A stretch of DNA of 26,536 nucleotides. Origin: a virus. This document shows positions 1 through 26,536 of the stretch, in pieces. The position numbers were made by a program, and so were the translations under genes. Location of the stretch: IMG/VR virus record IMGVR_UViG_3300042383_000620, positions 1-26,536 of that record; one strand, 5' to 3'. Under the pieces are notes generated by a model. That model worked only from the letters and a program-made list of their open reading frames with translations. It had not been told where the DNA came from and did not search any database. Numbering within the stretch: position 1 is the first letter of the stretch; every line of letters starts with the position of its first letter.

Positions 1-138
1 CTAACGGACAGCCGGCCACCGGCACAGTCCATAAGCTTTACCCCACAGCAACTCTCCCAGTCCATGGTCGACTTCCGTGCTGGGGAGCGTGCTCCTTTGA
101 ACATATCGACATCGACATCAACAAATAGGGGGCGTTAA
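1..138 (+). CDS. C-terminal end of an upstream virion gene (partial)
   Basis: Frame 1 is open from the first base to a TAA at 136-138, giving the last 45 residues of a protein rich in Ser, Thr, Pro and Asn that ends STSTNRGR. The stop shares its last base with the ATG of the next gene (TAATG), the coupling used throughout this strand, so this is a real gene end. Position just before the large virion protein and scaffold suggests a portal protein, because portal usually precedes scaffold and capsid. That rests only on gene order; no domain is visible in 45 residues. Confidence 0.6.
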   Translation, partial: LTDSRPPAQSISFTPQQLSQSMVDFRAGERAPLNISTSTSTNRGR

Positions 139-3100
139 TGGGTTATATCGGCGGGGGATCCGACACTTCCGGGGGCATGCTTCAGCCTGCGCCGTCAATG
201 CCGCGTGCTCCCAAGCCAGAGATAAAGCAGCCGATTGATATCAATCTTGACCCCACCAATCCAGTTGAGACAGTAGCTGCAGGAATTGGAAACCTGTTTA
301 CGGGTGTTGTCAGGGGAGCAGCTGGCGCAGCTGATTTCCTTGGAGGAGTTCCCGTAATAGGGGATGTCGGGAAGGCAATAGCCGGAGGCGTAGGCGCACT
401 TGGAGAAGTCGGACTTAAGGGAACCCTTCAGGTAAAAGATATTGCAAAGGGAGCCCTTGACCTTGCAATGGTTCCTGGCCAAGTTGTACAGACCGGGGCG
501 GCAGCAGTCAGGGCATCTGGTGTTTTTGGAGATAGGCCAGACGACGTAAAAAGCATGATGTCAAGCGGTAAGCAATTCGGGGAAGTTGTTGACTACCTAG
601 TAAAGAATAACCGTGCTTTTAGCGACAACGCAGCCGCCAACCTTGGGTTTGCTCTTGTCACTGACCCTCTAAACTACGTGCCAATAGCTAAGCCATTCAC
701 TATGGCCAGAGGCGCGGCAGGATTGGCAAAAGTTGAGGCCACAGCCCTATCCAGGGCTGATGACCTTATAGCTGCATCTAAGGCCGGAAAATCAGTATCG
801 GCCCTTGAGTCTGAGCTGGGGGTAACAGTTGCAGGCAAAAGGCCAAGCCAAATAAGGAGTGCAGTTCTCGCGGGTGCAATTAACCCTGAGGACGCCGCAT
901 TCCTAGATCGATGGAGAATCCCGGGAGCCCTATACGACGCGACTGTTGGTAAAATGGGCAGGGGTTTTGGGGCACTCACGTCTGCAATGCTTACTCCAGT
1001 ATTTATTGGAGCCACCAAGGAGCTACGGCAAGCCCCTAGGCTCACAGTAAAGTTCCTTGCGGATAATGGCAGGCCTGAACTTGCAGACAACCTTGCGCAA
1101 GCTATTGGCCGCGGTCTCAACCAGACCATGATATTTACAATCGGCAAGCTTTTCAACCGCTCTACTTCAAACGTAGCTACCGCAAGAGCAAACCGAGTTG
1201 TGTCCATCAGGAATCAAGGACGGGCACTAGAAAAGGCCGGAAGGGTTGCAAACGGTAAGGAGTGGGCAGCAAAAGAGCTAAATAACGAGGGCCTTTCTTC
1301 CGGCGACGCAGGATCGATGGAGCTCCTGAACCGAATCTGGGAGGCCTCTGACGATGCAGTAAGGGCTGCCCGAAGAGATTGGATCGACATACAGGTAAAG
1401 GCAGAAGTACGCCAGGTTGGAGCCGAGGCCGGAGGCAACTGGCAAACCATCCAGAAGGCTGGTGGCGTTAGGATGTCAGACTCGGCCCTCGAGGCATCTT
1501 CCCACATTGCGGAAGGGGCATACAAGCTTGAGAGACTTTCTCCTGAATTCCGAAGAACACTCTTCGTAGAAAAGGGTGCCGCCGCCGTGTCCGGCCATGG
1601 CAAGAAGCAGGTTGCTGACGCGTTCTCTGGGAATATTACACCGACAAGTCCAGAGGCCACTGCACTTCTTAGTCGATTCTGGGACGAGACTGTTTCTAAA
1701 ATGGGCCCAGAAGACCAAGCTCGATATGTCCAGCTCATGGAGATCGCCGCATATGGTAATCAGGGAACTAACGCAGCAATAATAAGAACAGCTCTTTCCG
1801 CCGTTGCCAAGGGGGATGAGAAGAAGCTAGCTGAAATTCTTGGTAAGGAAGTTCCTACTGCAAGGTTCGAAGAGCTACGAAAGATGCTGTCTGACCCGGC
1901 AAACACGAAGTACACCAGGATTAACCTTGTAAAGTCCGACAGTCTAACTAAAGAGCGTCTTGAATCTCTTAGGGACATTGCTGCCGCCGTGGAAAAAGGA
2001 GAGGCCATTCCCTCTGGAATTCTTGCGTCTCTTCCTGAGGAATTTGCCCAGATTGTCGGTGCGGCAAAAAGCCCTGACGATATAGCCGTAGCTATTGCTT
2101 CATACTTCCCTGACTTCGGCATGATAGTAAACCGTGCAGAAAAAGCGGTTTGGGCTGAAATGAAGTCCAACATAGACGAAATGATCAAGAGCGGGAACTA
2201 CGTTGTTAAGGCATCTGTTGACGAAGTTGCTGAGTTTCAAGGAATACTAAACAAGCTTAGCCCAGGTGCCGGAGCGGCCGTTCTGAAGTCTCTAGAGTCC
2301 GGTCGATACAGCCTTGGGTTTGCCCCAGAGTCTGGGGTAAGGGTTTCTATGGCCACAAAGGTAACGGACGACGCGGTTGAGTATATCCCGGATTCCGTAC
2401 TTCCTTTCATTGACAGCACAGCCAACCTCTTTGACGACACCCTAGAGCTTTCCGCTAACTCATTTAATAGGTCAGCTCTCCGACAAATGGCCGACAAGTG
2501 GCTGACCCCTGTTAGCTCTAGAGCGGTTCAAAATGAGCAGATTGCCACCGCAATCAGGCTAGCACAAAGGTACGGCGGAACCGAGGCGGACGGAAGAAGG
2601 GTCTTGGCGCAGATCAACGAGGAGGCCCTCCGTAGAAGGATGGTTCCTCGTGCTTTGATCATGGACGAGAACTTTGTAACAAAGACGTTCCAGTCTGCAT
2701 TTGGACCAAAAATCTATACTAAAATGATTGACGAAATAGGAGACCCTCGCAAGGCACTCATGACCCTTTATGCCGGATCAAAGGGGACCGTAGGGACTGC
2801 CCAGAACTTTACTGGTTGGGCAAAGACAAAGGTTCCCTCACTTGCTATAATAACAGATTACGTGTACCCTCAACTAAAGTTCCGATACAACCCGTTCTTC
2901 TTTGTTCAGGAGTACATTGAATCCCCATTCTTCAACCGGCTTCGAGGTATTAACCGGACAATGACAAGCGGAGAGTATAAAACTCGTCATGGCTGGATAA
3001 GAGCCCTTCCGTACGGTTCAAATTTTCTGGGAAGCCGCGTAGCACAGAGGGCCGGCATATCCAAGCTTGGAGAGGAGATCACACAGCCTATGGCCGCAAC

Positions 3101-4649
3101 GGTTCTTGGAGACTCTACCGCTGCAATAACCGCTGACCTTGACGTTATAAACTCCCTGGTTGCCCTTGGTGGGGCCCAGATTGGCAAAGTTGTCGACGAC
3201 ACAAAGAATGGCGCCATAGTAAGGCAGGGCTTGGCTCAAAGCATAAAAGGCGGGTTTGGGGACATGGTAAGGAATATTATAAACCCTTACCCTATGAAGA
3301 TGGCCAGGCGAGAAGAGGCCGCCCTGTCTATTGGGCTTGACGAGCTTGGGGCTGTTATGAGAACCCAATTCCCAAGGCAGTTTGTTCAGGGATCAAAAAC
3401 ATACGGAACAAATAACCCAAAAGAAATCTTAATCAACCTTATACGTGACGCTAAAAATGGTTATGTGAACCCAGTACGCGTTCTTGATGGAAACCGTCCA
3501 CCTGGCTTTGGGTTCTCTGCCAAGGGATCTCCAGATGCAGCCAAATCTCTGGCAGGAGACGTGTCTTCTCTCAGGGGCAAAGTGTCCGGGGCTTCAGACG
3601 AGGCATCTAAGATTGCCACGGCAAAAGCCGAGTCGATTATCCTTAAGGACGCTATAGAAAAGTCTGCTGCCCTTGGCAACGACGTTTCCAAACTGGCGGA
3701 ACTTAACATTAAGCTTATTGGCGTTAGGAGTGGAGACGAGGCCATAAAGATCATAGACAAGATGGCAGCGTTTGCCAATGAGGGACAGGCAATTGCCACG
3801 CAGTCAGTCAAGAACTTCGACCTGCTATCAAAAGCTATTAAGGAGTACCCAGAGCTTGCTGGATTTAACACAAAGGGATTTACAAGGGAAAGCCTTGCGG
3901 CATCTCTGGCAAACTTCCGAAAGTATGGCGGGGATTTCCCGGGACTAGAAAATGCCTTAACAAAGCTTCAGAAGGGTCAAAAGCTTGACGCAGAAGATGT
4001 TCGTGCGGTTCAGTTTGGAATGAACAAGCTAATCGGGGAGCATGGCTTCGAGGAGGTCCTACTTTCAGCTCTACGGGTTACACTAAAGGATACTGCAGAT
4101 GCTGCAAACAGAATCCACTTTTACAACCCTAACAGAACAGCTTTTGAAAGAAGCCTAAATCATCCCGTTCTTGGGATATACCCACTTTCTTACATGATGG
4201 GCAAGGTTGTTCCTGAGATGGCCAGGGCTGCTTTTGTAAAAATGCCGTTCACAAACAAGACGAGGCCATTTGCTGGATACGAAATGGTCAGGGAGGCCCA
4301 GGACCATTTGGCCACATGGGCGGAGACTGACCCCGAAGGGATGGACTCATTGTTCAAGTCGGATGCGGTATTCATGTTCAAGCAGCTTTTCCCGGCCGTT
4401 CCAGGTGATATTTCTGTGAGCGGTCCAAAGTGGCTTAATGCATACCTAATGCAGCTTGAGCGTGCCGGAAGGCCTCCTGCACCAGGACGAGAGCCTGCGC
4501 AGGCGGACCCGTTCTACGCAATACGGGCTCTTGCTGAACAGGGTGCAACGCAAAACGTATACGGAGTTCTAAAGAGATTCGGAGGGGTCGGATCAGAAGT
4601 ATGGGATTACTTCGATGGCCCTGTCGATTATGTTGAGCCAAACAAGTAA
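138..4649 (+). CDS. Very large (1503 aa) probable internal or ejected virion protein
   Basis: I cannot assign this to a named family with certainty. It lies between the presumed portal end and the scaffold gene, where phages often encode minor capsid, MuF-type or internal proteins delivered with the DNA. Residues about 40-105 are Gly/Ala-rich and hydrophobic with many amphipathic stretches; the middle is largely helical and Ala/Lys/Glu-rich. A C-terminal block around residues 1320-1360 carries an aromatic, Pro-rich patch (FYNPNRTAFERSLNHP, then YPLSYMMGK). No signal peptide and no catalytic motif are obvious. A large helical protein with membrane-active segments next to the capsid genes fits an ejection protein; a displaced tape measure is the alternative. 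The start is an ATG sharing a base with the previous stop, preceded by GGGGG. Codon use is rich in AGG and ATA, unlike the capsid gene. Confidence 0.6.
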   Translation: MGYIGGGSDTSGGMLQPAPSMPRAPKPEIKQPIDINLDPTNPVETVAAGIGNLFTGVVRGAAGAADFLGGVPVIGDVGKAIAGGVGALGEVGLKGTLQVKDIAKGALDLAMVPGQVVQTGAAAVRASGVFGDRPDDVKSMMSSGKQFGEVVDYLVKNNRAFSDNAAANLGFALVTDPLNYVPIAKPFTMARGAAGLAKVEATALSRADDLIAASKAGKSVSALESELGVTVAGKRPSQIRSAVLAGAINPEDAAFLDRWRIPGALYDATVGKMGRGFGALTSAMLTPVFIGATKELRQAPRLTVKFLADNGRPELADNLAQAIGRGLNQTMIFTIGKLFNRSTSNVATARANRVVSIRNQGRALEKAGRVANGKEWAAKELNNEGLSSGDAGSMELLNRIWEASDDAVRAARRDWIDIQVKAEVRQVGAEAGGNWQTIQKAGGVRMSDSALEASSHIAEGAYKLERLSPEFRRTLFVEKGAAAVSGHGKKQVADAFSGNITPTSPEATALLSRFWDETVSKMGPEDQARYVQLMEIAAYGNQGTNAAIIRTALSAVAKGDEKKLAEILGKEVPTARFEELRKMLSDPANTKYTRINLVKSDSLTKERLESLRDIAAAVEKGEAIPSGILASLPEEFAQIVGAAKSPDDIAVAIASYFPDFGMIVNRAEKAVWAEMKSNIDEMIKSGNYVVKASVDEVAEFQGILNKLSPGAGAAVLKSLESGRYSLGFAPESGVRVSMATKVTDDAVEYIPDSVLPFIDSTANLFDDTLELSANSFNRSALRQMADKWLTPVSSRAVQNEQIATAIRLAQRYGGTEADGRRVLAQINEEALRRRMVPRALIMDENFVTKTFQSAFGPKIYTKMIDEIGDPRKALMTLYAGSKGTVGTAQNFTGWAKTKVPSLAIITDYVYPQLKFRYNPFFFVQEYIESPFFNRLRGINRTMTSGEYKTRHGWIRALPYGSNFLGSRVAQRAGISKLGEEITQPMAATVLGDSTAAITADLDVINSLVALGGAQIGKVVDDTKNGAIVRQGLAQSIKGGFGDMVRNIINPYPMKMARREEAALSIGLDELGAVMRTQFPRQFVQGSKTYGTNNPKEILINLIRDAKNGYVNPVRVLDGNRPPGFGFSAKGSPDAAKSLAGDVSSLRGKVSGASDEASKIATAKAESIILKDAIEKSAALGNDVSKLAELNIKLIGVRSGDEAIKIIDKMAAFANEGQAIATQSVKNFDLLSKAIKEYPELAGFNTKGFTRESLAASLANFRKYGGDFPGLENALTKLQKGQKLDAEDVRAVQFGMNKLIGEHGFEEVLLSALRVTLKDTADAANRIHFYNPNRTAFERSLNHPVLGIYPLSYMMGKVVPEMARAAFVKMPFTNKTRPFAGYEMVREAQDHLATWAETDPEGMDSLFKSDAVFMFKQLFPAVPGDISVSGPKWLNAYLMQLERAGRPPAPGREPAQADPFYAIRALAEQGATQNVYGVLKRFGGVGSEVWDYFDGPVDYVEPNK

Positions 4650-20934: not shown

Positions 20935-21010
20935 GGGCCCGTAGCTCAACGGTTAGAGCACCCGGCTTATATCCGGGCGGTCCCAGGTTCGAATCCTGGC
21001 GGGCCTACCA
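20935..21010 (+). tRNA. tRNA-Ile (anticodon UAU)
   Basis: A complete cloverleaf is visible. The acceptor stem is GGGCCCG / CGGGCCT (one G-U), the D stem GCTC / GAGC, the anticodon stem CCCGG / CCGGG, the variable loop CGGTC and the T stem CCAGG / CCTGG with the canonical TTCGAAT loop. The discriminator is A and CCA is encoded. The anticodon loop CTTATAT gives anticodon TAT at 20968-20970, which reads AUA. Most bacteria read AUA with a CAU anticodon modified to lysidine, so UAU is unusual. The phage uses many ATA codons outside its capsid genes. It sits 4 bases after the 113-aa gene and before a terminator. Confidence 0.95.
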
Positions 21011-21053: not shown

Positions 21054-21098
21054 GCAAAAAAAGAGCCTACGCCGCGTGAGCGGCGTAGGCTTCTTTTT
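21054..21098. terminator. Bidirectional intrinsic terminator between convergent operons
   Basis: An 11-bp perfect stem (GCCTACGCCGC / GCGGCGTAGGC) with a GTGA loop at 21065-21090 is flanked by seven A residues on the left and TTCTTTTTA on the right. It therefore reads as a U-tailed terminator in both directions. It ends the rightward dnaB-tRNA transcript and the leftward small-gene operon, whose last stop codon lies in the T-run. Confidence 0.93.
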
Positions 21099-25023: not shown

Positions 25024-25061
25024 AAAAATAAACCCGCCCAGCCGCGTGAGCGGCTGGGCGG
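25024..25061 (-). terminator. Intrinsic terminator of the SSB operon
   Basis: A 12-bp stem, CCGCCCAGCCGC with GCGGCTGGGCGG and a four-base loop (25034-25061), is followed on the leftward strand by TTTATTTTT (25024-25032). It lies 20 bases beyond the membrane-protein stop. The tip GCCGCGTGAGCGGC is identical to that of the 21-kb terminator. Confidence 0.9.
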
Positions 25062-25081: not shown

Positions 25082-25270
25082 CTAGATCTTGCGGTAGTGA
25101 TTCCGCAGTGCAACATTGATTTCGTCTCCGATCCAGAGTGATAGTCCGATTACCGCTATACCAGCGAATACACCGAACCCAACGCCCAGTGCGGAGCCGA
25201 AGGCTGCGTAGCCTGCTGCTCCGCCGAAGACGATACCTGCTACCAATAGGATCTTGTCTCCTGCGTTCAT
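25082..25270 (-). CDS. Two-helix small membrane protein
   Basis: The 62-aa protein has two hydrophobic helices separated by Gly/Ala (KILLVAGIVFGGAAGYAAFG and GVGFGVFAGIAVIGLSLWIG) and a polar basic end (NHYRKI). The Gly-rich helices suggest tight packing, as in holins and small pore or regulator proteins. GAGGAGG lies upstream of the ATG, which overlaps the SSB stop (ATGA). Early co-expression with SSB argues against a lysis role; a membrane anchor or superinfection protein is possible. Confidence 0.7.
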   Translation of the reverse strand: MNAGDKILLVAGIVFGGAAGYAAFGSALGVGFGVFAGIAVIGLSLWIGDEINVALRNHYRKI

Positions 25271-25605
25271 GCTGGAACCTCCTCATTCATGCTGTCTACA
25301 ACGATGTTGGTATAGTACACTGGCTTACCACCTGCGACATCTTTCTTCTTGATGTCAATGTGACCATTGAAGTCTACCAACTTACCTGCCTGTGCTGCAA
25401 GCGCTTCGGCTACTGTGCCGCTTGCGATGCAGCGGATGTAGCGCACCTTGGTATCTTCACCTTCGCCGCTGGTGGCAGCAACTGTGAAGGTTAGGCGTGC
25501 TGAACCGTACTGCGACTGTTCCTTGCTGAGATACTGGTACGATGGTGTCGTACCGTCTGCTCGGAACTGCTGGAACTTACCCGAGAGCCTAACCGTGTTA
25601 GCCAT
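25267..25605 (-). CDS. SSB-like OB-fold single-strand DNA-binding protein
   Basis: The 112-aa protein follows the SSB strand order: VRLSGKFQQFRADG (strand 1), ARLTFTVAAT, KVRYIRCIASGTVAEALAAQ (strand 3 with the typical Ala-rich turn), GKLVDFNGHIDIKKKDVAGG (strand 4) and VYYTNIVVDSM (strand 5). It would bind ssDNA during replication and recombination. It has no acidic C-terminal tip like bacterial SSB, but ends EEVPA. The ATG at 25605 has AAGGAG 9 bases upstream; an earlier in-frame start has none. It flanks the structured intergenic region. Confidence 0.78.
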   Translation of the reverse strand: MANTVRLSGKFQQFRADGTTPSYQYLSKEQSQYGSARLTFTVAATSGEGEDTKVRYIRCIASGTVAEALAAQAGKLVDFNGHIDIKKKDVAGGKPVYYTNIVVDSMNEEVPA

Positions 25606-25664
25606 GTCTGCTAACTCCTTTTGCTTTGTCCAGGTACCTGCTCGGAAGTCCCTTGCGGGGGCTG

Positions 25665-25690
25665 GACAACGAGAGTATCCATCGGTTGTC
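25665..25690 (-). promoter_or_regulatory. Inverted repeat with TTGACA upstream of SSB
   Basis: GACAAC (25665-25670) and GTTGTC (25685-25690) are arms of an inverted repeat whose centres are two helical turns apart. On the leftward strand the outer arm reads TTGACA, a perfect -35, but no -10 lies at the right spacing. It is best read as an operator or protein-binding site for the SSB operon. Confidence 0.4.
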
Positions 25691-25794
25691 AAGGGCGCCG
25701 CCCGCCAGGGCGGAGCCGCATTTGTACGAGGAGCTGTGAAGCGACGAGTGATAGTAGAGTGCTCGGGCTTGACCCGCGGGAGCGTGAGCGACTA

Positions 25795-25835
25795 GCGGGC
25801 TGCGCAGCGCTTATAAATAAATAAGCGCAGCCCGC
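25795..25835. other. GC-rich stem with AT-rich loop
   Basis: GCGGGCTGCGC / GCGCAGCCCGC (11 bp perfect) closes a 19-base loop containing TTATAAATAAATAA. An alternative inner stem, GCGCTTAT / ATAAGCGC, competes with it. A strong hairpin with an easily melted loop is typical of origin or terminator elements, but no T-run follows on either strand. Confidence 0.6.
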
Positions 25836-25888
25836 GTCACCCTTTACTCCGATGGTACTCTTGGAAGACCAGCCCCCAGACCGTATTG

Positions 25889-25966
25889 CGCGAAGCGAGA
25901 CGAGCCCGCATTTCGGCAGAACTGCGGAGACTGCGCCTTGCGCAGTCCTGCTCGGCTTGCTTCGCG
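25889..25966 (+). ncRNA. Candidate three-way-junction structured element
   Basis: An outer helix CGCGAAGC / GCTTCGCG (25889-25896 with 25959-25966, extended by two G-U pairs) is followed by an inner helix CGAGC / GCTCG (25901-25905 with 25950-25954). These enclose two hairpins: CCGCA / TGCGG, and GACTGCGC / GCGCAGTC with a 3-base loop (25929-25947). All pairs are Watson-Crick except the two G-U pairs, possible only on this strand. Confidence 0.6.
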
Positions 25967-26041
25967 TGGTGCGTTCTTGTGCCTGCTCTTGCGGGGTGCC
26001 ATGGTGTGCATGTTGGCTTATCTAGTGTTGAGCACGAATAC

Positions 26042-26086
26042 GGGTGATACACAGGCAGTGCCTGCTTACCCTGTGTAAATCAACCC
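26042..26086 (+). ncRNA. Long hairpin with three bulged bases
   Basis: All 14 bases of the left arm (GGGTGATACACAGG) pair with the right arm CCTGTGTAAATCAACCC, leaving three bulged A residues on the right side and a 14-base loop. A smaller GGCA / TGCC hairpin competes in the loop. It lies between the three-way and the four-way element. Confidence 0.6.
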
Positions 26087-26092
26087 TGATAA

Positions 26093-26169
26093 GCAGCGCA
26101 CCCTGCGAAGCAGGGGGGGGTACAAGTCCCAATGGACTTGTGCACCCTAGACCGAAGGTCTTGCGCTGC
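26093..26169 (+). ncRNA. Candidate four-helix cloverleaf structured element
   Basis: An outer 8-bp helix GCAGCGCA / TGCGCTGC (26093-26100 with 26162-26169) encloses three hairpins. The first is CCCTGC / GCAGGG with a GAA loop. The second is ACAAGTCC / GGACTTGT with a CAAT loop (26122-26141, extended by U-G and G-C). The third is AGACC / GGTCT with a GAA loop. Every stem is perfect and the first and last abut the outer helix without spare bases. It is not a tRNA: no TTCRA loop or CCA. The C(GAA)G tips are also very stable as single-stranded DNA. Confidence 0.65.
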
Positions 26170-26187
26170 GGAGACGGCGAATGTTCA

Positions 26188-26268
26188 AAGGGGGGGCTCC
26201 CTGGGGAGAATATATAGATTTCCGTCAACGCTTGGGTACACCCTGCCTCCGCCCTTGAGACCCCCCTT
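26188..26268 (+). ncRNA. Possible long-range helix closing the structured region
   Basis: AAGGGGGG (26188-26195) is complementary to CCCCCCTT (26261-26268), enclosing 65 bases that include a small CTCC / GGAG hairpin and an ATATATAGA element. G runs slide easily, so the exact register is uncertain. Confidence 0.4.
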
Positions 26269-26336
26269 AGATAACCCTTTTGTGCAATTTTCTGCAAAAA
26301 GTGCCAAAAACCTGTCTTATATATAGAGGACTATTA

Positions 26337-26378
26337 CAGGTACACCTGAATCTTAAACAAAGAAGGTATATATACCTT
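26337..26378 (+). promoter_or_regulatory. Two palindromes upstream of the rightward gene
   Basis: CAGGT-AC-ACCTG (26337-26348) and a perfect 16-base palindrome AAGGTATATATACCTT (26363-26378) lie 32-73 bases before the ATG at 26410. CAGGTACCTG, a similar palindrome, lies at 25631-25640 in front of the SSB gene. They look like operators. A further GGGCA / TGCCC hairpin (26383-26395) sits just before the ribosome site. Confidence 0.5.
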
Positions 26379-26409
26379 TAGGGGGCAGTCTGCCCTGGGA
26401 GATGTAACA

Positions 26410-26536
26410 ATGGGACGAGGAGATAAGCCGGGGCAGGACGAGTGGAGTCAAGGCCGAAAGGCTGCTGGTGAGGCAAGAGGCTACGCTCCAGCCCCTCGTG
26501 GCGCAGCTAAGCCGGTTAATCTCGGGACCGTACGTG
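26410..26536 (+). CDS. N-terminus of a rightward gene, partial
   Basis: An ATG at 26410, with GGGAG about 8 bases upstream, opens a frame that runs off the window after 42 codons. The visible part is basic and disordered (MGRGDKPGQDEWSQGRKAAG, then EARGYAPAPRGAAKPVNLGT). As the first gene of the rightward strand, upstream of the virion genes if the genome is circular or circularly permuted, it may be a terminase or other head gene. That is only position-based. Confidence 0.6.
   Translation, partial: MGRGDKPGQDEWSQGRKAAGEARGYAPAPRGAAKPVNLGTVR

Follow-up and report, generated by a model that had tools for sequence, protein, structure and literature searches.

The locus examined here raises the question of what a compact, cloverleaf-shaped structure in non-coding phage DNA is, and whether it works as an RNA or as a folded strand of DNA. 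The whole stretch of DNA that was analysed, hereafter the window, was the 26,536-base virus record IMGVR_UViG_3300042383_000620. The proteins encoded in the window include DnaB-like helicase, SSB-like, ERF-type, and RadC-like proteins, and its capsid protein is 25-32% identical to the capsids of 20 phage records listed (of 40), including Bacillus phage Page. The structure, referred to as element X, is located between a leftward gene block, with an SSB-like gene (25267-25605) as its first, and a rightward operon that begins at 26411. Element X and its parts are as follows.

26093-26169, + strand: element X, whole cloverleaf (four-way junction), from RNA and DNA folding; homologous copies in L008 and L018
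26093-26100, + strand: outer helix, 5' arm, 8 bp, from the RNA fold
26101-26115, + strand: hairpin 1, with a C(GAA)G tip and containing GCGAAGC; almost invariant across the three copies
26116-26148, + strand: hairpin 2, 14 pairs, with a 4-base loop and one bulge; covaries
26149-26161, + strand: hairpin 3, with a C(GAA)G tip; covaries
26162-26169, + strand: outer helix, 3' arm, including a CTG present in all three copies

An earlier, sequence-only reading had described this site as a perfect cloverleaf. Four helices were recovered, namely, an 8-bp outer helix around three hairpins whose loops of 3, 4, and 3 bases are GAA, CAAT, and GAA, but the middle hairpin is imperfect, with a T-G wobble, a G-T end pair, and a one-base bulge. 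Hairpins 1 and 3 have stems of 6 and 5 bp, and the GCGAAGC in hairpin 1 and the C(GAA)G tips on both were present as claimed. The junction contained no unpaired base in the RNA fold and one in the DNA fold. On the + strand, the RNA fold reached -51.1 kcal/mol (z -7.0; 0 of 200 dinucleotide shuffles equally good), and the DNA fold reached -30.5 (z -6.8; 0 of 200 shuffles). Among the 77-base stretches of both strands of the window (6615 positions, sampled every 4 bases), X folded best; the second-ranked stretch starts at a terminator-like hairpin near 25034, and the third is that of a further element, Y, described below.

The claim that X is not a tRNA agreed with ARAGORN and the Rfam tRNA model, both of which gave no tRNA at X. 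The sole tRNA of the window, at 20935-21010, is a tRNA-Ile (anticodon tat) closing the rightward block, and it is followed at 21064-21091, where two gene blocks meet, by a 12-bp hairpin with a GTGA loop. None of the Rfam 15 families, including GOLLD and ROOL, matched X or Y at the gathering score, and the four sub-threshold matches within 25600-26420 were all far under the cut-off. Away from X, a sub-threshold match to the Rfam radC RNA was observed on the - strand of L008 (1191-1310; 27.8 bits, cut-off 40, E 0.046). Open reading frames of 57, 64, and 91 aa overlap X, and a 254-aa open frame extends from X into the SprT-like gene of L018. Since the core length of X varies (73, 76, and 72 bases in the three copies) and X is missing in the nearest relatives, these frames probably represent no conserved gene, in keeping with the non-coding status assigned earlier. 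Element X is an unnamed covarying structure that is not a tRNA and lies outside the Rfam families. A published description of X was not found, although this does not prove that none exists.

Relatives of the window were obtained by searching with the SSB-like protein, which gave L002, L003, and L004, and by searching with a conserved motif, the SprT-like protein, and the capsid, which gave L008, L018, and others (the best 80 of 107 in one search). Homologues of X were found at the same place and with the same layout in L008 (2427-2502) and L018 (3638-3709), which align to the window around the site at 73% and 71%, respectively. Their folds reached -43.5 and -45.1 kcal/mol, and the tip order C(GAA)G, four bases, C(GAA)G was common to all three copies. 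Compensatory stem changes, which the sequence-only reading had suggested looking for in related phages, were present. Of 31 pairs placed by RNAalifold on the three copies, 7 had changed on both sides; this was matched by 2 of 500 shuffled controls, and slid partners gave 0-1, although three sequences are few for such a count. Pairing was broken by a bulge in hairpin 1 of L008, by an A-G in L018, and by a possible tandem G-A in hairpin 3 of L008, which otherwise consists of only two G-C pairs. The T-G wobble was conserved in all three copies.

In the three nearest relatives found, the stems were missing. L002 was approximately 95% identical to the window on the left of the site and 97% identical on the right, with X cleanly absent, and L003 and L004 were also without X. 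Loss of the stems with the flanks kept had been named beforehand as an outcome that would speak against the element, and this was seen in all three, with the closest flanks in L002. Therefore, an essential role for X alone as an origin, a terminase site, or a packaging site, as had been considered for it, is unlikely. The more general claim, a structured element able to act as RNA or single-stranded DNA, is supported by the layout and the compensatory changes in two more distant phages.

A covariance model built from the three copies detected X in 3 of 87 records (3 of 50 and 0 of 37), that is, in its own sources with one copy each, and many of these records are short and may stop before the site. 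The model otherwise matched only each copy on its opposite strand, L023:1-74 at 22.9 bits (E 0.011), and L003 at 15.8 bits (E 0.54); the latter two were not counted as X. As X was absent in the three nearest relatives, which are 97-99% identical in the block downstream, and was present in 3 of 87 records, it seems dispensable. Judging from these comparisons, X is a genuine yet optional module that is apparently not essential. L021 spans the site and has no cloverleaf, and over 27 letters its 3' flank is the same as in the window. Since L002 differs from the window in this same flank, the difference between the window and L002 seems, by eye, to be an exchanged segment with X in it.

No match to the model was found in 13 newly found stretches, and scanning viral and genome contigs with DNA patterns of X gave no new copy; a pattern match in L013 was judged by eye to be due to chance. 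In named phages and plasmids, only matches of 23-26 bases to X were found, those in phages lying in head protein genes of 6 records, and the 2-kb region had no DNA match in phage records. As for the host, no related capsid gene turned up when genome contigs were scanned with a single pattern. In L134, L135, L136, and L140, GACAAG-N4-CTTGTC hairpins occupy the same intergenic region in place of X, and some distant relatives add a TGGCAC..GTGCCA hairpin there. Contigs L019-L024, L131, L136-L139, and L141 end inside or near this intergenic region, through assembly breaks or biology; the idea of a cos site or genome end was rejected because, by eye, the contigs end at differing letters.

Element Y lies approximately 120 bases upstream of X.

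25883-25972, + strand: element Y, a long stem with two terminal hairpins (three-way junction), from folding, a covariance model, and alignment

Y was found in the window, L002, L003, and L004, and its letters were strongly different between the window/L002, L003, and L004; coordinates elsewhere were L006:11230-11319 (- strand), L005:6842-6922, and L007:8273-8353. A covariance model of Y (R2) matched these four of 42 records at E < 1e-14, with two weak others at E 0.13 and 0.62, and gave no match in L008 and L018. Both sides had changed in 9 of 32 pairs, a number reached by 0 of 500 shuffles, and sliding gave 1-4. When the helices of hairpins A and B were aligned by hand, 11 of 12 compared pairs differed among the window, L003, and L004, and all were Watson-Crick. 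Identity within Y was 42-76% for the window versus L003/L004 and 39-59% for L003 versus L004, and that of the 240-base left flank was 96-100%. On the right side, the window and L003/L004 were 53-69% identical at 25968-26032 and 52-58% identical at 26033-26092, and the corresponding values for L003 versus L004 were 57% and 87%. Thus, the fast change was not limited to the paired arms. On these alignments, Y is an element in which letters have been replaced and pairing retained. A strict short-gap junction search gave five matches, namely, Y of L003 and L004 on both strands and one site in L130, compared with 0.18 per set in shuffles and 0 in 25 kb of the left part of the window; it was too strict in that X and the Y of the window were missed. 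Separately, a stem-loop zone at 25771-25838 of the window was 72% identical to L002 between neighbours of 92-98%, and hairpins still form there with different stems.

The following features were also located around X.

25698-25713, + strand: hairpin CCGCCC/GGGCGG, with the loops GCCA, GCGA, GCA, and GCCA in the window, L002, L003, and L004, respectively
26185-26271, + strand: element Z, a long-range stem directly 3' of X with arms at 26185-26199 and 26257-26271, from a stem search
26281-26410, + strand: block upstream of the rightward operon with 97-99% identity in L002, L003, and L004, from alignment

The block at 26281-26410 presumably holds the promoter and leader of the rightward operon, and X is positioned upstream of it. 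In the stem-search listing, pairing of a G-run with a C-run similar to Z was also given for L003, L004, L008, and L018.

Hairpin tips and strand preference bear on whether DNA or RNA is the working molecule. GNA and GNNA loops on G-C stems are described as exceptionally stable DNA mini-hairpins (PMC4686876). Among perfect hairpins with a stem of 5+ and a loop of 3-4, C(GNA)G or C(GNNA)G tips were carried by 12 of 27 in six noncoding regions, corresponding to approximately 7 independent sites, versus 11 of 285 in 78,143 control bases. The mirror loops, C(TNC)G and C(TNNC)G, were counted in 0 of 27 and 3 of 285, respectively. In 17 regions, 6 C(GNA)G, 4 C(GNYA)G, and 3 C(GNRA)G tips were found, compared with shuffle means of 0.17, 0.07, and 0.10, and a single mirror loop stood against these 13 special tips. 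The argument from loops is nevertheless weakened by the small number of sites, by the fact that 3 of 6 special-tip tetraloops are GNRA, which RNA also favours, and by a GCTA loop in distant leader hairpins.

With regard to strands, all 7 X and Y sequences, including two nearly identical Y sequences, gave a more stable fold on the + strand than on the - strand, an advantage that would be expected of single-stranded DNA as well as RNA. Across all long stems of 16 regions, non-Watson-Crick pairs comprised 26 G-T and 26 A-C, indicating no strand preference, and over the whole region the - strand folded better in 2 of 6 phages. G-T wobbles within X and Y suit RNA at least equally. Few unpaired letters were conserved in X and Y, in contrast to what structured RNAs usually show; RNA hairpins are not typically tipped by GAA triloops, and branched folds are commoner in RNA.

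With a probability of roughly 0.4, we favour the reading that X is a folded single-stranded-DNA landmark that would work like the three-hairpin priming origin of phage G4. X is proposed to be a structure-first module in the control region between divergent gene blocks of a tailed-phage clade. The three hairpins would fold when the + strand becomes single, as the lagging-strand template, or under negative supercoiling of the intergenic region that lies between the divergent transcription units. The C(GAA)G tips could let the folded hairpins resist SSB, and folded X may then serve as the landmark at which a priming or replication-control protein acts, as the G4 stem-loops position primase; the extruded N4 hairpin, which positions the N4 polymerase, would be an analogous case. 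The DNA reading is preferred because pairing is kept without letters, few unpaired letters are conserved, the loops are biased, and the + strand is the more stable. Further reasons are that neither a promoter nor a terminator was recognised on the + strand, that genes for an SSB-like protein and a DnaB-like helicase are present in the phage, and that the layout is G4-like, with a CTG 3' of hairpin 3 in all three copies. This CTG lies within the outer stem of X, L002 also has a CTG there without X, and the likelihood of chance occurrence is appreciable. Counted against the DNA reading was that X is lacking in the three nearest relatives found and in 84 of the 87 records, many of which are short fragments; such optional presence would fit an accessory priming site and not a sole origin.

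Among the closest known systems is the G4 complementary-strand origin (G4oric), which is described in PMC6783573 as three stem-loops that keep SSB off, with a CTG 3' of them. One of the three stem-loops in the G4 origin sequence has a GNNA mini-hairpin tip. X likewise has three adjacent stem-loops on one strand within approximately 100 bases. However, no sequence similarity to X was found, the G4 record being in the searched collection; moreover, the outer helix of X covers the CTG, and the phage of the window has a tailed-phage capsid gene. The early promoters of N4, as described in PMC4496689, have on one strand a short stem and a 3-base loop closed by a sheared G-A, and the hairpin is extruded by supercoiling, stabilised on one strand by SSB, and acts as DNA. 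Hairpins 1 and 3 of X also combine a short stem with a 3-base G.A loop, but the N4 hairpins are single and X is branched. The hairpin/cruciform beside the variable repeat of the DGR of the Bordetella phage BPP-1 (PMC3240598) has a GC-rich stem in which structure and not sequence counts, and one of its strands carries a conserved G..A loop; this hairpin works as DNA. It differs from X in being a single hairpin with a 4-base GRNA loop, which the loops of branched X, with its two GAA triloops, do not fit.

Near the start of the contig, ahead of a scaffold-like gene, the window encodes a 1503-aa protein (138-4649), which had no family, phage-record, or PDB match. An N4-type virion RNA polymerase was considered for it and rejected, as the TxxGR/DxxGR and HD motifs were absent, in addition to the lack of a PDB match. 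No RNA polymerase family was found among the window proteins scanned.

An alternative that we consider almost as probable as the DNA reading is that X, along with Y and Z, belongs to a structured noncoding RNA of the + strand, or to a long leader, transcribed from an unrecognised promoter upstream of X. Such a molecule would act as a sponge or protein ligand, or would govern stability or readthrough in the rightward operon. Structured RNAs are usually recognised by branched, covarying folds, and the T-G wobble in all three X copies, the G-T in Y, and the more stable + strand in every X and Y sequence suit such a molecule. Phages are also described in PMC12286853 as carrying large structured RNAs such as GOLLD and ROOL, which resemble X and Y as ornate phage-borne structures of unknown role. 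X and Y, however, do not come near them in size, and few of their unpaired bases are conserved. Neither element matched Rfam, and GAA triloops are atypical of RNA tips. A sigma-70 consensus promoter-like site was not found within 25616-26536, including the block at 26281-26410, and neither was a + strand terminator-like site between 25616 and 26536. In a looser promoter scan, none of the five best + strand candidates lay upstream of X in the window or L008, and two weak ones did in L018. Moreover, X lies upstream of the conserved, presumed promoter block and not within it.

It is unlikely, in our assessment, that a mutational process in place of selection produced X, with intrastrand template switching copying arm onto arm, recombination exchanging hairpin cassettes, and X being a by-product without a function of its own. 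The strongly diverged yet complementary arms of Y would be expected from such copying, X and its 3' flank differ together between the window and L002 (the window flank being that of L021 over 27 letters), and the phage encodes an ERF-type annealing protein. However, the same four-way layout, loop sizes, C(GAA)G tips, and place recur in three diverged phages, and the loop bias is left unexplained by arm copying. That X is a small mobile element of the MITE, REP, or GC-cluster kind inserted in the window is very improbable despite the nearly clean empty site in the closest relative, L002, as no dispersed copies exist in the records (3 of 87, one each, always at the same site), pattern scans of viral and genome contigs gave no new copy, and no target duplication was seen by eye.

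On the DNA reading, a wider and decidedly speculative extension is that X and Y represent a new kind of control element in tailed dsDNA phages, situated between divergent operons and consisting of branched modules of folded-strand DNA that combine three- and four-way junctions with mini-hairpin tips of the DNA type. In such modules, the fold and not the sequence would be selected, arms would be rewritten, and modules would be swapped or dropped among close relatives. If the fold is the selected trait, these phages would offer a natural series of structure-kept, sequence-replaced modules, present or absent in close backgrounds. With such a series, one could ask directly whether the control signals of dsDNA phages are folded DNA strands and not RNAs, and what causes stems to be rewritten.

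Some minor repeats and hairpins were observed in the same intergenic region. A GGTRATACMC-like motif, with TGAYAA approximately 30-45 bases later, apparently occurs twice by eye, at about 26042-26092 and at 26234-26275 of the window, and also in L003, L004, L008, L018, L023, and L140; X begins, by eye, at the first TGAYAAG of this motif pair. In the leader of the rightward operon, at 26365-26395 of the window, the hairpins GGTATATATACC and GGGCAGTCTGCCC are mostly kept in near relatives, and several distant relatives have CTGGCC-GCTA-GGCCAG in the leader.
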